This document shows, one piece after another, positions 1-10,301 of a stretch of DNA of 10,301 bases. This stretch comes from Flectobacillus sp. (GTDB taxonomy: Bacteria > Bacteroidota > Bacteroidia > Cytophagales > Spirosomataceae), in NCBI GenBank assembly GCA_029865665.1, contig JARXAV010000284.1, forward strand, positions 1 to 10,301, in the 5' to 3' direction. Position 1 is the first letter of the stretch; every line of letters begins with the position of its first letter. The translations under genes and the position numbers were made by a program. A model generated the notes under the pieces. That model was given only the letters and a program-made list of their open reading frames with translations, was not told where the DNA came from and made no database searches.

Positions 1-1660
1 GTTTTACATCACTCCAAGTTAATACAGCCTGATTATTTAGGATTTCATAACTTAGTAAAGGGGGCGACTGTACCTCCTCTTTTTTGACAGGTACATACGA
101 CACATAAGGAGCATAAGCACTGGTATCTTGTGTGACATTCATGGCCATCACGCTATAATAGTAGGTTAAACGAGCCGAAAGGTAATCGGTGCTATCAACG
201 TATTGTTGTGTTTTAACAGCAGAACGAATAGGTTTCATTTTTTGAGGACTAGTCCCTCGATAAACGATGTAACTAAAAATTGCTTTTTCATCGGCTACTT
301 CCCATGATAACTTAGCAAATTTCCCTTCCGAAACCACTTTCAAATTAAAAGGAGGCGTTGGACGGCTAAATTTAGCACAGGTAATCGCTACAGAAGCACC
401 AACATCTTGTTTCAGTTCTTGAAATTCGATGAATACAGGTCTTACATAGTAGGTAAACAATTGTCCCGCAGGATATACCTCCGTATCTATGAACTGACTG
501 GCTGTTGTAGGTAAAATTTGGATTACCTTAGCAGGATCTCCCCCTATACTTTTAGCAATTTCAACGCCTGCATAATAGGGCTTATTCGCTAATTTTCTCC
601 ATTTTAAAATAATCGAATTAGCACTATCTTTCGCACTTACACCATAAATAAGCTCTATACTTCCATTATGAGCAATTACTCCACGAGCAATTTTAGTGGT
701 ATCTCCTTGATTGTAAACATAATCTTCTGGAATTAGTATAGCTTCAACGAGGTCATCTAACTTCCCTATAACCCTAGCTGAAATCCGTCTATTACCAAGA
801 GAATCAGTATCTGCTATCTTCTTTTCTAAAAAACGCCAACTTAGGTTTCCATTGGTGCGATAATAAACTAGAAAATGCGTATTAAAATCATCTATCGAAT
901 TAGTATTTAATACCTTGGGATTGTTAAGATAAATAGCTTTGATTTGGCTATAAGACTTCTCATCTGCTTTCTTAGCAGTATTTTCTGGTATATAGCCAAA
1001 TACTTCATTGAGCTGACTTCCAACCCTGGTTTGCTCAAGGGCATTATCTTCTAACGTTGGAAAGTTCAATTTCCATTCAAAAGTAACAGATGAGTCTGCT
1101 CCTGCCACTTTTGACAATTGCGATTTTATCTCTTTCAATAAAGGGTTTTGGGGATAAGAAAATACGCCTATTTCTTGCACTAATGTTTCAGGCTGCTCCT
1201 CTTTTTTTTCATAGATACTATATCTATAAAGTTCATTTTTCTGGGCTGTTTTATCCAAAAAAGCAAAACCAAACGCTTGCAAAAACTCAATCTTTAATTC
1301 GCCAAACAAGGCAAGATCTTTATAGGCAGGATGACTATTAAAATAAGCCATAGTTTGTGACGGGCTGGTAAATTTTTTCATTTTGTCAAATTCACTTGCT
1401 TCTCTTATCCCTACCAATGCCTGAAACTCCTGATAGGTCTTTATCATCTGCAACTGTCCAATCGTCTTAATACCTTCTTCATTCAATTTTTGACGTTTGA
1501 TGATATATTTAGCATCACCTATCTTTTTGGATGCTAAGAACTCAGCATTTAAGCGAAGATACACCCCTTTAGGCGAAGACAATGCAACAACTTGTTGCTC
1601 TTGAGCTACCACCCATTTAGATAATAAAACAAAGAATAATACGTATGAAAAGATTCTCAT
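1..1660 (-). CDS. Secreted fibronectin type III domain protein, 3' end beyond window
   Basis: An open frame runs without a stop from the ATG at 1660-1658 off the left edge: 553 complete codons, C-terminus missing. The first 19 residues (MRIFSYVLFFVLLSKWVVA) form a classic signal peptide, so the protein is exported. An FN3-like module spans about residues 336-432 (nt 655-365), with ILKW and YYAGVEI strands. A clearer one spans about 436-523 (nt 355-92), with PTPPFNLKV, LSWEV, YIVYRG and TYYYSVMAMN. A third begins near residue 527 (SPPLLSYEI, AVLTWSD) and is cut by the edge. Residues 20-330 are less clear; a LYRYSIYE stretch suggests a further divergent FN3-like fold. No catalytic motif is visible. 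The ATG is chosen because the signal peptide follows it at once; the leader is A-rich with no Shine-Dalgarno, as is usual in Bacteroidota. It lies 85 bases downstream of the giant lectin gene and is probably co-transcribed. A role as surface partner or scaffold is inference. Confidence 0.93.
   Translation of the reverse strand, partial: MRIFSYVLFFVLLSKWVVAQEQQVVALSSPKGVYLRLNAEFLASKKIGDAKYIIKRQKLNEEGIKTIGQLQMIKTYQEFQALVGIREASEFDKMKKFTSPSQTMAYFNSHPAYKDLALFGELKIEFLQAFGFAFLDKTAQKNELYRYSIYEKKEEQPETLVQEIGVFSYPQNPLLKEIKSQLSKVAGADSSVTFEWKLNFPTLEDNALEQTRVGSQLNEVFGYIPENTAKKADEKSYSQIKAIYLNNPKVLNTNSIDDFNTHFLVYYRTNGNLSWRFLEKKIADTDSLGNRRISARVIGKLDDLVEAILIPEDYVYNQGDTTKIARGVIAHNGSIELIYGVSAKDSANSIILKWRKLANKPYYAGVEIAKSIGGDPAKVIQILPTTASQFIDTEVYPAGQLFTYYVRPVFIEFQELKQDVGASVAITCAKFSRPTPPFNLKVVSEGKFAKLSWEVADEKAIFSYIVYRGTSPQKMKPIRSAVKTQQYVDSTDYLSARLTYYYSVMAMNVTQDTSAYAPYVSYVPVKKEEVQSPPLLSYEILNNQAVLTWSDVK
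1604..1660 (-). other. Signal peptide of the FN3 protein
   Basis: Codons 1-19 encode one Arg near the start, then a hydrophobic core (VLFFVLL), and end V-V-A before Q-E-Q-Q. This fits signal peptidase I cleavage after residue 19. There is no cysteine at the cleavage point, so it is not a lipoprotein signal. Confidence 0.85.
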
Positions 1661-1745: not shown

Positions 1746-4700
1746 TTATTTTCCTTTTGTAAGTGTTGACCAAACAATATCTTTAACTCGATACACAGCG
1801 TTAGTGATATTACCTGGATTTAAACGTTCTAAGGACTTATACAAGACTAAATTACCGTCGTTTTGCATCATTAATACTGCCTCTGCTCCTGATTTCCCAT
1901 AGGTTTCAGATGACCATGCTGGAATTCCTCCTTTGATATAAGCAACAACATTTCCATCCTTTTGTACTTTGAAGGCATCTACGTCTTTCCCATAGGTTCC
2001 TGTTGTCCATATCGCTAATGCTCCTTTGTAAAGCACTACGTTACCATCAGACTGTAGGGTCACTTTATAAGTACCATTGAGTGACGTAATAGATTGATTT
2101 GGCCTTAGCATATTTTCTGCTCTAATGGTGGACGTGTTAATTTCATTCTCTGTAAACAAATCATTTGTCCCCGACGACCAAATGCCTTCTTTTCCATTTT
2201 TGTAAAGTACTAAATTACCGTCATCCTGAATAACCATTACTGTTGTGGCATCACCTTTTCCATTAGTACTAGAAGCCCACTGAGGATTACCACCTTGCCC
2301 ATATACTACCAAGTTACCATCTTCCTGTAATCGTAAGGCATCACCTGATGTATTAGCCTGCCATATTAAGGTATTATTTTTAGTGATTACTAGATTACCA
2401 CTTTCATTCAGTGTGACTTTATAGATGCCATTGGCCGATGTTCTTGACTCGCCACGTTTCAACGCTCTATCAGAAACAATAGATGAACCTGCTGGATACG
2501 GATTTTCTCTATCTTTCTTTACCTTGCCACCTGTAGTGCTTGAAGACCAAATAGGTTCAAAAATTCTATATATAGAAACACTGCTTGACTTTGACTCCTC
2601 CAATGTTTTATAGAGCACTACATCACCGTCGTCTTGCATCATCAATGCTGTTCGATTATTTCCTTTTCCATTGGTTACAGTGGCCCAAACAGGCACTCCA
2701 TCTTTTGAATAAGCTACTAAATTACCATCGTTTTGTACTTTAAAAACATCCGTTCCTTTTCCAGCTGTACCTATGGACCAGATTTCATTTTTTGCTTTCC
2801 GAAGGACAACATTGCCATCACTCTCAAAAATCAACTTATAGGTATCATTAGGTGATGTTAGTGACTGATTATGACGTAATGCTTTTTCGTTTTTCAAAAT
2901 GGATTTCTCTACTTCCACTTCTGATAATACATTATTTGTATTAGAGCTCCAAAGTGCTTCTTTTCCATTTTTATAAAGTACTAAGTTACCGTCGTCTTGG
3001 ATAGTTAAAATTGTAGTACGATCCCCTTTGCCTTCAGTATCAGAAGACCATATCCTATTCCATTTACTATCATAAGCAACCAAGTTTCCATTCTTTTCTA
3101 CTTTTAGAACTTCAACTCCTTTACCACCCGTTTGAGTGTCCCAAATCTTAGCTCCTTTTTTCGTTAATATAATATTACCATCCTGAGTAAGTGATAATTT
3201 ATAAATACGATTAGGTGAGTTTTTCGACTGATTAAGCTTTAATAAGCTTTTTGCTTCAAGCGAAGATTCAGGTAAAAATGGATTTTCAATTGTTTTTGGA
3301 GCAATACGTCCACTTTTATTTGAATTCCAAATTGGGTTTTTAAAACGATATAGCGTTACATTACCTGGTCGTAAAGATTCATATTCACCATACAGTACAA
3401 GGTTTCCATCATCTTGTAAGAATAGCACTGATTTACTCCCTCCTTTTCCGTGTGTTGAAGATGCCCATTCTGGTTTTCCATCCTGAAGATATACAACCAC
3501 ATTTCCATCATTTTGTATTTTAAACATACTCACATTCTTGTCATCGGTATCTGTTGCCCACACAATTTTACTGATATAATTACGAAGCGTTACATTGCCA
3601 TCCGACTCAAGTGTCAGTTTGTAGTCCCCATTTGCGGAAACAAGTGACTCATTCGTACTTAGCGTTTTTTCTGCCTGAAGAATCGATTTTTTAACTTCTT
3701 CTTCTGCAAATACGTTCGCAGTACCCGAACTCCACATCTGTGCTTGACTCTCGTTATGCAACACCATATTTCCATCGTCTTGCACCACCAAAACAGGAGA
3801 GGTTCTTATTATTCCAGCTTTCAAAAAGAGTTGTGCTTGGTTGCTTAGGCTTGTATTAGAAGACCATTTCGCCACGCCATTTGCATAAGCTACTAAATTA
3901 CCATCTTTCTGTAATTTAAGAACATTTACACCCGTCGTGTTAGTTTCCCAAATCTTAATACCCTCTTTTGTAAGTACTACATTACCAACATCTTGCAATG
4001 TCAACTTATAGATTCCATTAGGCGATGTTCTTGATTCATTTACACTTAATTCACTATCCGTTACGAGCGATGCAACTGCTGGGAATGTATTTGCTTTTTC
4101 ATTCTTAGAAGTTCCGCCATCTGTTCCGCTACCCCAAATAGCATCCTTGCCTCGGTAAACCTTAACATATCCCGGAGTAATTTCATCTAACGACTTATAA
4201 AGCACCAAGTTTCCATCATTCTGCATTAATAAAACGGTAGTGTTATTTCCTTTGCCATTTGTTTTAGAATCCCATTTAGGTACTCCGCCTCTAGCGTAAG
4301 CTACTAAATTTCCATCATTCTGTACTTTAAAGGCATCAATATCCGCACCACCTGTTTCAGTAGCCCAAATTACTTTTCCATTCTCTCTGCGGAGTGTTAC
4401 ATTTCCATCAGTGTCAATTGCTACTTTATATTTATCATTGTTAGAAGTCAGCAATTGACCAGGTCTCAACATATTCTCTGCTTTAATTAACGATTTACTG
4501 GTAACTTCAGCTTCTGTGAATATGTTTGATGTACCTGACGACCAAATAGAATTCTCTCCATCTTTGTAAAGCACCAAGTTACCATCATCTTGCATTACCA
4601 ATACTGTTCTATCACCACTTTGGCCATTTGTTTGAGAAGACCATTTAGCTGCTCCGCCTTTAGCGTAAGCTACTAAATTTCCATCATTCTGTACTTTAAA

Positions 4701-7700
4701 GGCATCTACTCCTGTGGTACGAGTTTCCCAGATTTTAGTGCCATCTTTTGTAATCACTACATTGCCATCCTCTTTCTGAAGGGTTAATTTATAAATCCCA
4801 TTAGGTGACACTTTCGATTCGCCAGGTGCTAATGATGACTCAGCTGTAATCGAACTAGCTTCTGAGAAACGATTTCCACCAGACTGTGTACCCGGCATAT
4901 TTCCTCCCAATTGGACACGCCATCCTCTCGCTTCTGGTACCCCTTTTTCTTGATAATATACTCCCATTTGTCCTTCAAGACAAATCTTAGCAAATCTACT
5001 TCTAGTACCACATGGATACGGCACATCAATACGTGCCCAACACCTCCATGATGTACCATCACAGCAGGTTATACATTTAGAACACCACGTTATCCCTGTG
5101 ATGCTATAATCATTACAAGCTTCATTGGCATAATTACCCGCTCCAATTTCTAATTTAGCATTAGCAGAAGCTCTAAAGTTCCAGCCTAATTCATTGGTTC
5201 GTCCACCACCTAATTCCAAATCTAAATCTAGCTTACCTCCCATGTTAAAAGCTAAGATAGAAGCTTTAGCTTCTGCTTCCAATTTCAAAGAAGAGGTAAT
5301 CATAAAGTTACCATTGGAGAAATTAACGCCTGCATGAAGTCTCCCTTTAGCATTAATTTCCGAACTATATTTAACTAAATCAATACCAAAGGCACTTAGT
5401 CCACCATTCTTTGTAGATTGATAAGCGACATCTACACCTAAATAGATGGCGGAGATAGTACGATTATCGTTTTGGTATAAGTATTTTGGCAATCCTTTAA
5501 CATAATTACCTAACTCTTTCGGAGCGGCACCATCCTGCGTATCACACATAATACCAAGTACTGCGATTCCGTTGACATTCATTCCTAAAATATCTGCCCT
5601 TACAGTTGCCCCCAAGAAAAACCCTGCTGACTTTGAGATAAATGCGAGCCCATCGACTTTTACTTTTTTATCCGAAACCTTAATTTCGCAATCAATCTTA
5701 CATACAACCATTACTCGGCACATATCAATATCTGCCGTGACATCGCATATTTTCTCTTCTTTTTCGTTTCTCGCCACTATGATTCCAGACCATACTTCCA
5801 TTGACCCTCTTATCACAATAGGAACTCCCGAAGAGCATTCTGCTTTTCCATCATATTCAACTGCCAGTCTAATTTTTTTGTACCTTGTTACTTTTTCTGG
5901 CACTCCAGTAGTACGTGCGTCACCTAACAAGAATACTGCGAACTTCTTATCTGCCGTATTAAGGTCAAACCCACCACCTAAGGCTGTCCATGTAATAGGC
6001 CCCATTGGTAAACCTGTTGGTCCTAATGCCACTTTTAAGGCAGCCCCCAACTCTATACCTGTTCCATTTCCTTTTTCGTCAAAAAGTTTATAAAACTTAA
6101 GAGACATAGCCGTTTTCATTGTTGCCCCTTCAAATGTACCCTCTCCTTCTGCTCCAATTTTTTTACCTGATGTACCTATCTTAACTTTAGCATAAGCTCT
6201 AAAAGAAGGAGCATCCACTTTGAGCATGAACTCATTCATTTTAAAAACAATACCTTTGCCATCAAAATCACCGACATAAAACGAGGCATCCGAATCAATA
6301 TTTACGGATTTGGTTTCTACTTCTACCCCACCAGCAAAACCCATCGCCCATGCCGTTGTAAGTGGATTATCTAATGTGACCTTGTCTTCAATCGCCTTCA
6401 CACTCAGATTATCAATAGCAGCCCCTTCTTTCGTTTTCTGACTAGCTTCAGAAGTTGCTCCAATACGTTTACCTTCTTTATCAATGTATGTATTGGCATC
6501 GTTGAATTTGACAGACGAATTCAGTTTTTTCATTTCGTCTTCACTCATTTTGAGTAAATCCTGTATTTCGCTTTCTTTTACAGGCGATGCAGGCTGCGTT
6601 TCGGTTGCAGCGACTCCTTTTGCAAATACAATACGACGTATTTTGATTGCTACAGGACCAAAACTCAATGCGTCAGGACTTGGTGCTGCCGAAACAATAA
6701 ACTTACCCGTTGTTGACCACTTGAAAAGCTGAACCTCAATAGGAAACACCCTATCAATCAACCCTTTAGTTTCTCTACTTTTGGTATCTACTTCTCTCTG
6801 CTGCCCATTTTCTACAGCCACTCTTGCATCTGTATCTTTCTTTTCAGCTTCTACTTTAGCTTTCTTAGCTTTAGCTGCTTTCTCTAATTCATCCTTTTTT
6901 TCTGCCTCCGCTTTAGCCAGTGCAGCCCTATCACTTTCAACCTGATTTTTTAGTTTTTCTAATGCTGTACGTTTCTCTTCCAACGCTTTTTTCAAGTCAT
7001 CGGTATCATACATTTGTAATCGTTTACGTCGCTCTGCATTTTCGGCAGTTGTAAGATTAGCTTGCTGAATTGCCAGTTCTTCTTCTCGCTTTTTACGCTG
7101 TCTTTCCTCAATTTCAGCCTGTTTATTTTCCAGTTCTTGATTTGCGTCTGCTATTTTTTTCTCATTATCCTTGAGCTTCTTATTTATCTCAATTTGCTCT
7201 TTAGAAAGATCATGACCAAAACGATCTTTAGTGTCCGTTGATAAATCTTTCGATTCTTTCTCATCGTATTCTATTCTCAAAGAACCTTCAATCTCATAGC
7301 TTTTATCATCGGGATTTCCTTTGATTGTAATACTTTTCTTACCTACTGTTTTAAAGCGTAGTTTACTAATTTTAAAACCATCTTTAGGAGTACTCAAATC
7401 TACGTTAGGATACACTCGTCCATCTATTACCGAAAGCCCTAATGAATTAATGTTAATGTAGTTTTCTTTGTCCGTATTGATTGTACCACCAACGCCAAAG
7501 CCTTTGAAATTGTTATATAGCTGTACGGTTTTCCAATAGCACATAAACTTATCTGCCATTCCAAAACGAACAATTTCGGGTTTTGCCTCATCAGTTTTAC
7601 CGATTGTTGCCATCTTCATGGCAAACTTTTTATCAATTTCGAGCTTTTCAATCGCTAGTGCTGGGTCATCCATTTTAAATCTCCATATCTCAGGAAGTAA

Positions 7701-10301
7701 TAAAACACCCTTCATCGAAATACCCGATTTTTTTAGGACTGCTTCTTCAGGATTAATACCAGCCATAACGGACGGAATCCCTACAAGAGGTACCGTTCCA
7801 ACAGGAATCCTAACGAAATCAGCATATTTGTCCACCTTTTGAGGTGCCTCATAATCCTTCTTAACTTCCTTCGGAGCGGTGATATTATTCATATCCTCCT
7901 TTTTGGCCGCATGCGGAAATTCAATTTTATACTCCTTACTTTCTGATAATTCATCTAAATTAACAGGAGCAAAAGCGAGTAATAGAGGTTCTTTTTCGGG
8001 TGCTTCCGTATATTTTTTACCTTGCAAATCAGTTAAAGCCTTTTCTTCTATCTTTTTGGAATCCCCTTTAGCAGTTGCTACCGCATTTTTTTGATTCTGA
8101 ATTTCCATTTTTAAGGCAAGTGCATCATCTTCTTTTCGTTGCGTTTCTGACTTCGAAGCTTTTTTATCTGATATTTTATCATCTGCTTTGCCGAATTTTG
8201 CTTCCTTATTTGGATCTTTTACTTTTAGCTCCATTTTTCCAAAATTCACTCCCATCATCTCCCTCTGAGTAAATTCCATCTCAGAGGCACCAATTTTACC
8301 ATCGCTTGCTTTCCCTGCCTTTACGTCTAAATGTTGCATACGAATATAAGGTTCACCTTCAGGGTTCCCTTGTAACGTAATTGGGGCATAGCCAAAGAGC
8401 ATAATTTTCGCTTCTGTTTCTACAAAATTGACAGAAGTCATTACTGTAACAGCATTATCTTTATTCTTAGCATCTAGTTTTACAACAAGATTTCTAAAAT
8501 TCAACTCTTTTGTACCAGCTGTGGCAGAGAAAATATTCGTTTGCTTTCCTTTTTCAAGCTTTCCTTTGTCTAAATACAACACACCCGAAATCAGATAGGC
8601 ATCACTTGATTGCTTGATCGCTTTATCCACTTTAATATTAAAACCCATTAACGTAGCAAACTTAGGAATATCGTTATCCTGTCGTAACAAATAGAGGTCT
8701 TTCCGCCTTTTTTCAAGGGGATTAGCACTATTATGTTGTTGTGCCTGAATAGCCGTAAAAGCATACTTAGAGGTAGCAAAACCTTTTTTACTTGCCTCTA
8801 GCTCAAAATCCTCTCCTTTGGGTACTAGTACCTTAAATTGCCCATTTTTATTGGTCAAGCCTTTACTACCGCTTACAGATACCTCTACACTGTCAATGGC
8901 ATTAAAAGAATCCCCAGGTTTACGAACCGACGCATCATATTCCTGATGAACTCCCTTGATATACGTTGTACTATCATAAACGGTTCCATAAAAATACATA
9001 GCAGGCTTGAGCCTTATTTTTACTAAAAATGTATCTTTTTTAACTTTAGTTTTTGGTAAAGAAATGGTAAACTCCTCCTCGACATAGGTTGGAATCGACG
9101 TGGTATCACTCGCTAATACTCGTTTATTCATAACTTTAATAACCAATTCCCCCTTCGATACTTTACCCACATATCCACCTGTCCAAGTAGCTTTTCCATT
9201 ATACTTTATAAGTTGCCCTTTTTGCACCACTTGTTCGTTATCGTCTATTTTGACAACGGCCTCCTTTAAATAAACAGAATCCTCAGCATTTCTCAACCCT
9301 AGTGTTCCAGTTCTATTGATATAGGTGATAATCCTATATTTTACCTCGTGATTAAGAACTACAGAATCAACTGCATAGAAAGATGTGAGAGTACTTTGAG
9401 TCTGTACAAAATTTTCTTCAAAAAATTGTTCTCGATTAGGCATTCTTGCTTTTACCGCTTTGATAAAGCTCTCTTTTCGATCCTCCATCGTAGCTCCTGT
9501 AATCGCTTTTTTCTTGAATTTACTGACAGGCATATAGGTAACATCATAGCCATCAAAAGAGACTTTCACAGAATCTTTCATTTCGCCAACACGTGCCAAA
9601 CTAAAATATCCTTCTGCACTCGTTTTACTTGATTGGCCTTGCAATTCAACTGTTGCTCCCGACAAAACAGAGCCGTCACGTAGATAGACACGCCCCTCTA
9701 CATAATAAGCATTACGGTTGATAACCAGTATTTTTGCCTCATCTTTCAATTGATAGACAAGCGTATCCGACACAATGTTATTTGCATTGAGTGGGTCAAC
9801 AGCACTGAGTACAATTTTGGTATTTTTAGCTGTGTTTTGTGGGATGTCTATTTCAAAATATCCTTTATCATTCGTCCGAACAGATTTTCCTAATACCCTT
9901 ACTGAAACATTGGCAAGGCGTTCTGTTTTTTCACCCTTTGTTTCTACATAGCCACTAATGAGATGATTGGGAGCTGTATAATTAAAATAGTCGGTAACGC
10001 CTGCATAGCTCCCCTCTTTGATGTCTTCGATATCATTTACAGGAAATACAACCGCTTTACGACCCTTCTGTTTTACTCGAAGCACAAATTTGTCATTGTA
10101 CGGTTTATTATAAAATAGTTGGGCGACTGTACTAGTTTTGCCAAAATCTGCTACTTTAACATAAGTATCATTATTGAACGAAAGTGTTGCTTTTTCACCA
10201 TCTATATTTCCCTCCTGTTTGAGATAAGGATTCTTATCAAGGCTTGTTTTAAGACGATAAAGGGCTATTTCTTCAATATTATCCTTTGATAAAGCCGATT
10301 C
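1746..10301 (-). CDS. Giant modular protein with C-terminal bulb-type lectin array, 5' end beyond window
   Basis: One open frame covers 2851 codons from the right edge to the TAA at 1748-1746. The reading stays open through 10086-10301, so the start is outside the window; the GTG at 10085 is an internal Val. Visible residues in order: three carboxypeptidase-regulatory-like segments (about 112-184, 195-259, 434-516), beta-rich sequence, a charged linker (692-771), a second beta-rich region, a coiled coil (1024-1185), a Gly-rich beta body (about 1294-1720), an eight-cysteine patch (1729-1774), and eight B-lectin domains (1824-2851). GNA-type lectin domains bind mannose through QxDxNxVxY, and 14 of 24 possible sites here match it in full. 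The protein ends directly after the last lectin domain (WSTLTKGK), with no recognisable type IX secretion C-terminal domain. No transmembrane helix or enzyme motif was seen. A secreted or surface glycan-binding protein is the likeliest reading; export route and target are unknown. Confidence 0.95.
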   Translation of the reverse strand, partial: ESALSKDNIEEIALYRLKTSLDKNPYLKQEGNIDGEKATLSFNNDTYVKVADFGKTSTVAQLFYNKPYNDKFVLRVKQKGRKAVVFPVNDIEDIKEGSYAGVTDYFNYTAPNHLISGYVETKGEKTERLANVSVRVLGKSVRTNDKGYFEIDIPQNTAKNTKIVLSAVDPLNANNIVSDTLVYQLKDEAKILVINRNAYYVEGRVYLRDGSVLSGATVELQGQSSKTSAEGYFSLARVGEMKDSVKVSFDGYDVTYMPVSKFKKKAITGATMEDRKESFIKAVKARMPNREQFFEENFVQTQSTLTSFYAVDSVVLNHEVKYRIITYINRTGTLGLRNAEDSVYLKEAVVKIDDNEQVVQKGQLIKYNGKATWTGGYVGKVSKGELVIKVMNKRVLASDTTSIPTYVEEEFTISLPKTKVKKDTFLVKIRLKPAMYFYGTVYDSTTYIKGVHQEYDASVRKPGDSFNAIDSVEVSVSGSKGLTNKNGQFKVLVPKGEDFELEASKKGFATSKYAFTAIQAQQHNSANPLEKRRKDLYLLRQDNDIPKFATLMGFNIKVDKAIKQSSDAYLISGVLYLDKGKLEKGKQTNIFSATAGTKELNFRNLVVKLDAKNKDNAVTVMTSVNFVETEAKIMLFGYAPITLQGNPEGEPYIRMQHLDVKAGKASDGKIGASEMEFTQREMMGVNFGKMELKVKDPNKEAKFGKADDKISDKKASKSETQRKEDDALALKMEIQNQKNAVATAKGDSKKIEEKALTDLQGKKYTEAPEKEPLLLAFAPVNLDELSESKEYKIEFPHAAKKEDMNNITAPKEVKKDYEAPQKVDKYADFVRIPVGTVPLVGIPSVMAGINPEEAVLKKSGISMKGVLLLPEIWRFKMDDPALAIEKLEIDKKFAMKMATIGKTDEAKPEIVRFGMADKFMCYWKTVQLYNNFKGFGVGGTINTDKENYININSLGLSVIDGRVYPNVDLSTPKDGFKISKLRFKTVGKKSITIKGNPDDKSYEIEGSLRIEYDEKESKDLSTDTKDRFGHDLSKEQIEINKKLKDNEKKIADANQELENKQAEIEERQRKKREEELAIQQANLTTAENAERRKRLQMYDTDDLKKALEEKRTALEKLKNQVESDRAALAKAEAEKKDELEKAAKAKKAKVEAEKKDTDARVAVENGQQREVDTKSRETKGLIDRVFPIEVQLFKWSTTGKFIVSAAPSPDALSFGPVAIKIRRIVFAKGVAATETQPASPVKESEIQDLLKMSEDEMKKLNSSVKFNDANTYIDKEGKRIGATSEASQKTKEGAAIDNLSVKAIEDKVTLDNPLTTAWAMGFAGGVEVETKSVNIDSDASFYVGDFDGKGIVFKMNEFMLKVDAPSFRAYAKVKIGTSGKKIGAEGEGTFEGATMKTAMSLKFYKLFDEKGNGTGIELGAALKVALGPTGLPMGPITWTALGGGFDLNTADKKFAVFLLGDARTTGVPEKVTRYKKIRLAVEYDGKAECSSGVPIVIRGSMEVWSGIIVARNEKEEKICDVTADIDMCRVMVVCKIDCEIKVSDKKVKVDGLAFISKSAGFFLGATVRADILGMNVNGIAVLGIMCDTQDGAAPKELGNYVKGLPKYLYQNDNRTISAIYLGVDVAYQSTKNGGLSAFGIDLVKYSSEINAKGRLHAGVNFSNGNFMITSSLKLEAEAKASILAFNMGGKLDLDLELGGGRTNELGWNFRASANAKLEIGAGNYANEACNDYSITGITWCSKCITCCDGTSWRCWARIDVPYPCGTRSRFAKICLEGQMGVYYQEKGVPEARGWRVQLGGNMPGTQSGGNRFSEASSITAESSLAPGESKVSPNGIYKLTLQKEDGNVVITKDGTKIWETRTTGVDAFKVQNDGNLVAYAKGGAAKWSSQTNGQSGDRTVLVMQDDGNLVLYKDGENSIWSSGTSNIFTEAEVTSKSLIKAENMLRPGQLLTSNNDKYKVAIDTDGNVTLRRENGKVIWATETGGADIDAFKVQNDGNLVAYARGGVPKWDSKTNGKGNNTTVLLMQNDGNLVLYKSLDEITPGYVKVYRGKDAIWGSGTDGGTSKNEKANTFPAVASLVTDSELSVNESRTSPNGIYKLTLQDVGNVVLTKEGIKIWETNTTGVNVLKLQKDGNLVAYANGVAKWSSNTSLSNQAQLFLKAGIIRTSPVLVVQDDGNMVLHNESQAQMWSSGTANVFAEEEVKKSILQAEKTLSTNESLVSANGDYKLTLESDGNVTLRNYISKIVWATDTDDKNVSMFKIQNDGNVVVYLQDGKPEWASSTHGKGGSKSVLFLQDDGNLVLYGEYESLRPGNVTLYRFKNPIWNSNKSGRIAPKTIENPFLPESSLEAKSLLKLNQSKNSPNRIYKLSLTQDGNIILTKKGAKIWDTQTGGKGVEVLKVEKNGNLVAYDSKWNRIWSSDTEGKGDRTTILTIQDDGNLVLYKNGKEALWSSNTNNVLSEVEVEKSILKNEKALRHNQSLTSPNDTYKLIFESDGNVVLRKAKNEIWSIGTAGKGTDVFKVQNDGNLVAYSKDGVPVWATVTNGKGNNRTALMMQDDGDVVLYKTLEESKSSSVSIYRIFEPIWSSSTTGGKVKKDRENPYPAGSSIVSDRALKRGESRTSANGIYKVTLNESGNLVITKNNTLIWQANTSGDALRLQEDGNLVVYGQGGNPQWASSTNGKGDATTVMVIQDDGNLVLYKNGKEGIWSSGTNDLFTENEINTSTIRAENMLRPNQSITSLNGTYKVTLQSDGNVVLYKGALAIWTTGTYGKDVDAFKVQKDGNVVAYIKGGIPAWSSETYGKSGAEAVLMMQNDGNLVLYKSLERLNPGNITNAVYRVKDIVWSTLTKGK
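1749..2108 (-). repeat. Lectin unit B4, terminal
   Basis: 120 residues. It is the only unit with all three sites intact (QSDGNVVLY, QKDGNVVAY, QNDGNLVLY). It keeps the B-type extension (LERLNPGNITNAVYRV) but lacks the linker, because the protein stops right after the last strand. Confidence 0.9.
2109..2462 (-). repeat. Lectin unit A4
   Basis: 118 residues. The second and third sites are intact (QEDGNLVVY, QDDGNLVLY) and the first is lost (NESGNLVIT). Confidence 0.9.
2463..2879 (-). repeat. Lectin unit B3
   Basis: 139 residues. The second site is intact (QNDGNLVAY). The third has N changed to D (QDDGDVVLY) and the first is lost (ESDGNVVLR). The B-type extension is EESKSSSVSIYRI. Confidence 0.9.
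2880..3242 (-). repeat. Lectin unit A3
   Basis: 121 residues. Only the third site is intact (QDDGNLVLY). The second has Q-to-E and D-to-N changes (EKNGNLVAY) and the first is lost (TQDGNIILT). Confidence 0.9.
3243..3662 (-). repeat. Lectin unit B2
   Basis: 140 residues. The second and third sites are intact (QNDGNVVVY, QDDGNLVLY) and the first is lost (ESDGNVTLR). The B-type extension is ESLRPGNVTLYRF. Confidence 0.9.
3663..4049 (-). repeat. Lectin unit A2, divergent
   Basis: 129 residues, about 8 longer than A1 and A3 because of an insertion between the second and third hairpins (LSNQAQLFLKAGI). Only the second site is intact (QKDGNLVAY). The third ends in His instead of Tyr (QDDGNMVLH) and the first lacks the Asp (QDVGNVVLT). 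Confidence 0.88.
4050..4469 (-). repeat. Lectin unit B1
   Basis: 140 residues. The second and third sites are intact (QNDGNLVAY, QNDGNLVLY) and the first is lost (DTDGNVTLR). The B-type extension in the third hairpin reads SLDEITPGYVKVYRG. Confidence 0.9.
4292..4706. repeat. Perfect 46-base direct repeat between units A1 and B1
   Basis: Bases 4292-4337 and 4661-4706 are identical over 46 bases and lie 369 bases (123 codons) apart in the same frame. Upstream in plus-strand order the match extends by nine more bases with a single mismatch. It encodes the second-hairpin segment around DAFKVQNDGNLVAYA. Confidence 0.9.
4470..4832 (-). repeat. Lectin unit A1
   Basis: 121 residues. The second and third sites are intact (QNDGNLVAY, QDDGNLVLY). 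The first is degenerate (KEDGNVVIT). It is the first unit after the cysteine patch. Confidence 0.9.
4980..5117 (-). other. Eight-cysteine patch before the lectin array
   Basis: Eight cysteines in 46 residues with spacing C-x10-C-x2-C-x2-C-C-x6-C-x9-C-x9-C. In an exported protein this would most simply form a disulfide-knotted plug; the C-x2-C-x2-C-C run could also bind metal. It marks the border between the beta body and the lectin array. Confidence 0.75.
5150..6420 (-). other. Glycine-rich beta body of unknown family
   Basis: Visible residues from about 1294 to 1718 show alternating strands and Gly turns, such as GPTGLPMGPITWTALGGGF and FAVFLLGDAR, then LDLDLELGGG near the end. Six cysteines lie between about 5845 and 5545 (contexts AEC, KIC, DMC, VVC, IDC, IMC). 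I do not recognise the family. The composition resembles a beta-barrel or solenoid, but no hydrophobic transmembrane pattern is obvious. Confidence 0.45.
6745..7230 (-). other. Long charged coiled coil
   Basis: About 160 residues (visible 1024-1185) rich in K, E, A, Q and R. Hydrophobic residues recur at heptad-like spacing in stretches such as LKKALEEKRTALEKLKNQV. It is Pro- and Gly-poor until near its end. It sits between beta-rich parts and probably forms a helical stalk or hinge, or an oligomerisation element. Confidence 0.75.
7990..8227 (-). other. Lys/Glu/Asp-rich linker
   Basis: Visible residues about 692-771 are dominated by K, E, D, A and Q (for example KADDKISDKKASKSETQ), with almost no aromatic residues. 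They are probably helical or disordered and separate two beta-rich regions. Confidence 0.6.
8755..9002 (-). other. Carboxypeptidase-regulatory-like domain 3, with insertion
   Basis: Visible residues about 434-516. It begins FYGTVYDST, carries an insert of roughly 20 residues, then IDSVEVSVSG, TNKNGQFKVLVPKG and LEASKKGFAT. The final segment matches the family well; the insert after the first strand is unusual. Confidence 0.65.
9525..9717 (-). other. Carboxypeptidase-regulatory-like domain 2
   Basis: Visible residues about 195-259. It shows VEGRVYLRDG, LSGATVELQG and TSAEGYFSLARV followed by VKVSFDGYD, the textbook order of the family and the best of the three matches. Confidence 0.8.
9750..9968 (-). 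other. Carboxypeptidase-regulatory-like domain 1
   Basis: Visible residues about 112-184. The pattern is LISGYVE, then LANVSVRVLG, then TNDKGYFEIDIP. The G-x-V start, the A-N/T-V middle strand and the turn D-K-G-Y-F are hallmarks of this beta-sandwich family, which in Bacteroidota usually acts as a structural module of surface proteins. Confidence 0.75.

Follow-up and report, generated by a model that had tools for sequence, protein, structure and literature searches.

The window analyzed here is a 10,301-nt stretch of Flectobacillus sp. DNA (contig JARXAV010000284.1), and its dominant feature is a single giant open reading frame (ORF) on the minus strand, with a second minus-strand ORF downstream (Table 1). 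The C-terminal 1,039 residues of the giant protein split into eight units of the bulb-type lectin family B_lectin, in the order A1-B1-A2-B2-A3-B3-A4-B4 (window 4865-1749). On the whole protein, the B_lectin model PF01453 scores 181 bits (E = 6.9e-54) against a cut-off of 32.4. When the units were scanned singly, all eight matched PF01453 (E 2.5e-12 to 2.4e-6) and six exceeded the gathering cut-off, with A2 (30.8 bits) and B4 (28.4 bits) falling below it. The first-pass annotation, which had proposed eight bulb-type lectin domains fused to a giant modular protein, is borne out on both counts; of the span that it gave to the array, 1749..4832, the start stands and the end is corrected to 4865. 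Its pair repeat of about 780 bases is likewise found, as A-B blocks of 777, 807, 780 and 753 nt. Since these blocks share only 60 to 63% DNA identity with one another, we consider them to be old. The reading frame is open across all eight units, both in the window and in P0001, a near-copy of the gene from a record labelled Spirosomataceae bacterium that is identical at 1582/1589 body and 1029/1042 tail residues. Tandem Repeats Finder, whose longest period is 500, reported no repeat row in the window. Weak Pfam names on the array, among them Flagellin_D3, ANAPC4_WD40, a NOMO1-like family and GvpO, were dismissed as cross-matches, although Flagellin_D3 and ANAPC4_WD40 nonetheless exceed the Pfam cut-off on the whole protein.

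Table 1. Features of the 10,301-nt window, in window coordinates
Feature	Position	Strand	Remarks
Giant-protein ORF	1746-10301	minus	2,851 aa within window; N-terminus cut by window edge; from ORF list
CarboxypepD_reg-like domain	9540..9701	minus	PF13620, E 4.1e-12, 46.7 bits; residues 201-254
Predicted long helices, coiled-coil-like segment	6810..7202	minus	AlphaFold 2 (AF2) model helices 187-248, 254-317
Conserved core, long amphipathic antiparallel beta strands	4908..6740	minus	Outer-membrane barrel resemblance weak
Lectin unit A1	4524-4865	minus	PF01453; motif sites II and III intact; modelled
Lectin unit B1	4089-4523	minus	PF01453; sites II and III intact; modelled
Lectin unit A2	3714-4088	minus	PF01453; site II intact; site III Y to H
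Lectin unit B2	3282-3713	minus	PF01453; sites II and III intact
Lectin unit A3	2931-3281	minus	PF01453; site III intact
Lectin unit B3	2502-2930	minus	PF01453; site II intact; site III N to D; no P0002 counterpart
Lectin unit A4	2160-2501	minus	PF01453; sites II and III intact; no P0002 counterpart
Lectin unit B4	1749-2159	minus	PF01453; sites I, II and III all intact; last unit, protein ends here
Downstream neighbour, partial, FN3-like	2..1660	minus	Name from below-cut-off Tissue_fac match of L002 relative and reading by eye

The A and B units differ in type. Each B unit has about 13 additional columns before the last tryptophan that are without equivalent in the A units, in keeping with the type-specific stretches described earlier. 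In a tree of the eight window units built from 117 shared columns, with the B-only insert removed, the four A units separate from the four B units with support of 100/99; in this eight-row tree, 13 of 500 label shuffles equalled the split. We also built trees of 41 units from 13 proteins, in which the A/B labels were assigned by position and the seven units of the relative P0014 were labelled by eye. P0001 and P0010, a near-copy of P0009, were excluded from these trees, from the motif count and from the body tree described below. The A/B split received 93/96 on all columns and 86/90 without the B-only columns, neither branch being starred by the program and the bootstrap of the second being unsettled. 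One A/B change sufficed in 94% and 88%, respectively, of 200 bootstrap trees, and none of 500 label shuffles matched the observed grouping. The grouping of A with A and B with B is thus strong in the window and moderate in the family. Taken together, the unit order, the single-unit scans and the unit trees uphold the proposal that a two-domain block was duplicated into four A-B pairs.

With residues 1 to 1,812 of the giant as query, 23 proteins were returned, and a unit profile found lectin units in 14 of them: eight in P0001, seven in P0014, six in P0002 and two in each of eleven others. Relatives therefore carry the same body with 0, 2, 6 or 7 units, which goes beyond the earlier annotation. 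Read by eye, the lectin-less relatives stop where the linker of the window protein starts, and the tail of P0014 consists of three A-B pairs followed by an extra B-type unit. The closest distinct relative of the window giant has 84% core identity and a unit order that differs by one B-A block. In the unit tree, window units 1, 2, 3, 4, 5 and 8 partner units 1 to 6 of P0002 (supports 98/79, 100/99, 98/93, 100/98, 100/100 and 100/99), and B3 and A4 have no partner there. On this alignment of units, the difference between the window protein and P0002 is one B-A block gained or lost with the A-B phase kept. On the body tree, which carries only Shimodaira-Hasegawa-like approximate likelihood ratio (SH-aLRT) support and includes four long rows, lectin presence requires three changes over 22 rows. 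Well-supported branches force at least two of these, since the lectin-less P0007 and P0016 adjoin lectin-bearing rows. This history fits one gain of the tail and two losses, or repeated gains.

We then considered how widespread the tail is. Among 222 genomes of the family Spirosomataceae, the body occurs in 10, with a B_lectin match inside it in four; an eleventh match of 61 residues (G107) was not counted as a body. The four lectin-tailed bodies have open frames of 2641-2695 aa, the length of a one-pair protein. Seven further genomes of the 222 have B_lectin matches outside the body. In a sample of 395 genomes from across the phylum, six had a B_lectin match of any kind at E <= 0.001.

The putative sugar sites were examined through the QxDxNxVxY motif. 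In its strict form the motif occupies 14 of the 24 places in the window array and occurs nowhere else in the giant. Of the units in the 41-unit family set, 14/20 A and 21/21 B have an intact site II, 17/20 A and 15/21 B an intact site III, and 4/20 A and 11/21 B an intact site I, while the three positions of the tryptophan triad are kept in 40, 41 and 41 units. The first pair (A1-B1) was predicted as two lectin domains with a predicted local distance difference test (pLDDT) score of 93.9, and the units of a pair are predicted to be separate beta-prism II domains. In these respects the giant's units resemble the Galanthus nivalis agglutinin (GNA)/monocot mannose-binding lectin (MMBL) family (PF01453; snowdrop agglutinin, Gastrodia and Marasmius lectins), with which they share the predicted fold, the tryptophan triad and the QxDxNxVxY sites. 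Unlike those lectins, the giant has eight domains, in four unequal pairs at its C-terminal end, and site I is mostly lost in the window. Mannose or rhamnose may be the ligand of the giant's lectin family.

The tail diverges faster than the core that precedes it: in all six chosen pairs of relatives, tail identity was lower (lectin/core identities of 73/84, 61/90, 68/72, 81/90, 89/96 and 53/67%), and the window protein and P0001 differ at 7/1,589 body and 13/1,042 tail residues. Fast drift with kept sugar contacts would suit changing recognition. The same rapid divergence could be expected if the units were lectin folds left over from duplication, their sugar sites decayed and their function no longer under selection, and the 10 of 24 window motifs that deviate and the absence of the tail from 9/23 relatives also point that way. 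We nevertheless regard such non-binding remnants as very improbable: site I bears the heaviest decay, every B unit of the family has an intact site II, the tryptophan triad is kept in at least 40 of the 41 units, and the frame remains open over all eight units in the window and in P0001.

The closest natural solved sequences are the LlpA bacteriocins (putidacin L1 and pyocins L1 and L2), which have a tandem B_lectin pair in common with the giant. A search of PDB sequences returned pyocin L2 as the best match, with an alignment that spans both domains, and the window giant reaches 431 bits with NF033557, the NCBIfam model for putidacin L1 proteins, whose cut-off is 275. Both results favor an LlpA-type antibacterial weapon, in which the pairs would bind the lipopolysaccharide and an outer-membrane protein of competitors and the giant would present four such heads at the surface. 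That score, however, is summed over 11 stretches of the repeat array, and a one-pair relative scores 129 bits. LlpA proteins consist of two tandem domains as the whole protein plus a C-terminal extension, whereas the giant carries eight on 2851+ aa and ends in B4. The tandem domains of LlpA proteins are rigidly arranged and strand-swapped. The predicted pair superimposes on the solved structures with a root mean square deviation of 11.8 over 191 for pyocin L1 and of 9.1-9.2 over 190-193 for putidacin L1, so that, going by a prediction and not a solved structure, the arrangement of the giant's pair may differ from that of LlpA. One likeness lies in the sites themselves: the C-domain of pyocin L1 is described (PMC3916391) as having two working sites in one domain and binding D-rhamnose, and two intact sites likewise occur within single domains of the giant's tail. 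We consider the weapon improbable.

The origin of the pair was examined in a tree of 113 columns that placed ten units of the giant's family alongside 48 units from 24 tandem lectins outside it; LlpA sequences were not among its rows. The outside set was chosen by length from the 119 other proteins among the matches listed, and one of them (P0056) is labelled tardigrade. The ten family units formed one clade (100/99), and the N and C domains of the outside lectins were intermixed, with 22 changes rather than two groups. An imported LlpA-like pair was therefore judged an unlikely origin, and since the family is one clade and the outside N and C domains are mixed, the A/B duplication looks to be the family's own. 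These placements indicate that A and B arose by duplication inside the giant's family, and suggest that tandem B-lectins arose repeatedly, not from one bacteriocin-like ancestor. Within the clade, A was one group (100/98) and B required two changes, because the B unit of P0024 falls outside the other B units. P0024 (262 aa) is recorded as a free-standing A-B pair whose start, by eye, lies in the linker region of a giant with one pair. The record may reflect a gene that is broken or mis-called and not a true free lectin.

Multi-unit B-lectins are common. A pair query gave 5,051 B_lectin matches at E <= 1e-5 among 7,987 scored, and an eight-unit query gave 951 at E <= 1e-10 among 7,994 scored. 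In the 120 best of these 951, two units were counted in 2 proteins, three in 40, four in 39, five in 22 and at least six in 17, although the counting can split one domain in two and some rows are plant or fungal; we therefore trust clean rows only. One such row is P0170 from Clostridium sp. 19966, in which eight clean units of about 125 aa each follow one another, and the idea that eight is unprecedented was rejected. P0170 shares 28% identity with the window array and differs from the giant in being fused to an NlpC/P60-type (C40) peptidase. A review (PMC6240691) notes that Bacteroidetes, Spirosoma among them, have tandem MMBL genes and that the domain is often fused to others. On these grounds multi-unit bacterial B-lectins are already known, and the contrast first drawn with two-domain bacterial lectins was too narrow: 118 of the 120 best-listed proteins have at least three units by counts that can split domains. 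What sets this family apart is that A and B alternate along the tail of a conserved giant and that the number of pairs varies; among the literature titles and abstracts listed by searches, none described a giant protein of this sort, or an A-B array of lectins, in Flectobacillus or Spirosomataceae.

Other bacterial systems offer partial parallels. MUL_3720 of Mycobacterium ulcerans is a B_lectin reported at the bacterial cell surface for glycan binding (PMC7906334), and differs in having one lectin domain and a LysM domain in a 22-kDa protein. The UmbA lectins of Streptomyces umbrella toxins are diversified modules that select the target glycan, according to PMC13274773, and the UmbA4 structure 9oee is among the structure matches of the giant's lectin pair. 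Unlike those toxins, the giant has no trypsin-type family in its Pfam scan; other umbrella-toxin parts were not searched for. In Flavobacterium johnsoniae, another member of the Bacteroidota, the surface adhesins of gliding, RemA and SprB, offer a further parallel, and RemA contains a lectin domain (PMC12618676).

The SprB likeness extends to the gene neighborhood of one relative, locus L002, where the Ig/SprB-type protein upstream of the giant has SprB repeats and a type IX sorting tail (TIGR04183, E 1.1e-8). In loci L001-L004, the one-strand order is an immunoglobulin (Ig)/SprB-type protein, a 575-aa protein, the giant and an FN3-like protein, an order kept in four of the five loci with upstream DNA. 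A relative of the FN3-like neighbor follows the giant in all 12 other records that reach past the giant's end, as well as in the window. The 575-aa protein had no Pfam or NCBIfam match, and the window's own FN3-like neighbor had no meaningful Pfam match. This conserved neighborhood would tie the giant to an envelope or secreted protein set. Unlike the RemA/SprB adhesins, the giant is without a recognised type IX tail at E <= 0.01, and the idea that it is itself a type IX substrate was rejected because no sorting model matched at that threshold. A signal-peptide-like start, read by eye, is among the N-terminal extras of the relatives P0002 and P0003.

The position of the tail, at the C-terminal end after a linker rich in Gly, Ser and Asn (read by eye), would also suit a structural spacer or self-interaction module that attaches to polysaccharide of the same cell, or to a further copy of the protein, and so fixes the giant in the envelope or capsule. 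MMBL domains can pair by strand exchange (PMC6240691 and PMC3585409), and the matching mycobacterial B-lectin 4oit/4oiz is a domain-swapped dimer according to its entry title. A tail that ranges from 0 to 8 units on the same body and is less conserved than the core better suits an outward-facing part, however, and we regard self-anchoring as unlikely.

Our preferred reading is that the tail is probably a multivalent glycan-binding module used at the surface, on a surface or secreted scaffold; we rank it first, followed by self-anchoring, LlpA-type killing and decay. Because the tail is absent, one-pair or three-pair in relatives, it is likely to be an adjustable, multi-grip sugar binder. In the mechanism that we envisage, the giant's body would be exported and held at the cell envelope, and each A-B pair would use its sites II and III for a weak grip on a polysaccharide resembling mannose or D-rhamnose polymers. 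Gain or loss of whole blocks would alter avidity and sequence drift of the units would alter the sugar recognised, the likely use being to attach to matrix or to the surfaces of algae or other microbes. Several points weigh against multivalent surface binding. Besides the deviating motifs, site I is lost in seven of the eight window units; relaxed constraint would equally speed tail drift; and the lectin-less relatives indicate that the body can manage without a tail. B_lectin domains also function in bacteriocins, and MUL_3720 binds sulfated galactose and N-acetylgalactosamine (GalNAc), not mannose (PMC7906334). At locus L005, relatives of the giant, the FN3-like protein and the 575-aa protein lie in a different order, and no Ig/SprB relative was found there though upstream DNA is present. 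The AF2 model of the core is weak (predicted template modelling score, pTM, 0.47), and a fold search gave no assigned fold. Type IX sorting models matched neither the window giant nor the giant of L002 at E <= 0.01, and export and surface exposure are putative, since there is no recognised type IX tail and the N-terminus lies outside the window.

More tentatively, the family may represent a conserved Bacteroidota surface scaffold whose lectin valency evolves in A-B steps (0, 1, 3 or 4 pairs) with the phase kept, and in which sugar contacts are retained as the rest diverges fast; such a retargetable array could possibly let close strains switch both grip and target. The family also shows the two-domain lectin block as the unit of gain and loss, with the order of A and B preserved. 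With 0, 1, 3 or 4 lectin pairs on one protein, the window giant and its relatives form a natural series that makes the effect of lectin valency on bacterial attachment testable with matched natural constructs.

The conserved body exceeds 2,000 residues, and most of its length has no assigned fold. Two stretches of the window giant pass the PF13620 model, the better of which is listed in Table 1, and an FN3 domain was found by Pfam scan in the giant of L002, adding to the N-terminal part absent from the window. Beyond FN3 and CarboxypepD_reg, Pfam scans of these two giants gave no convincing body family. From the AF2 model, the predicted long helices may form a coiled coil. The conserved body (4908-6740 and its relatives) has many invariant residues and a cysteine cluster ahead of the linker. 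Genome G001, which encodes a lectin-tailed giant, also has at L029 a second, shorter body-like ORF (513-aa open frame) with its own FN3-like neighbor. Compared by eye with the window protein, P0001 has a short insertion within its charged helical segment, a further length-variable place.

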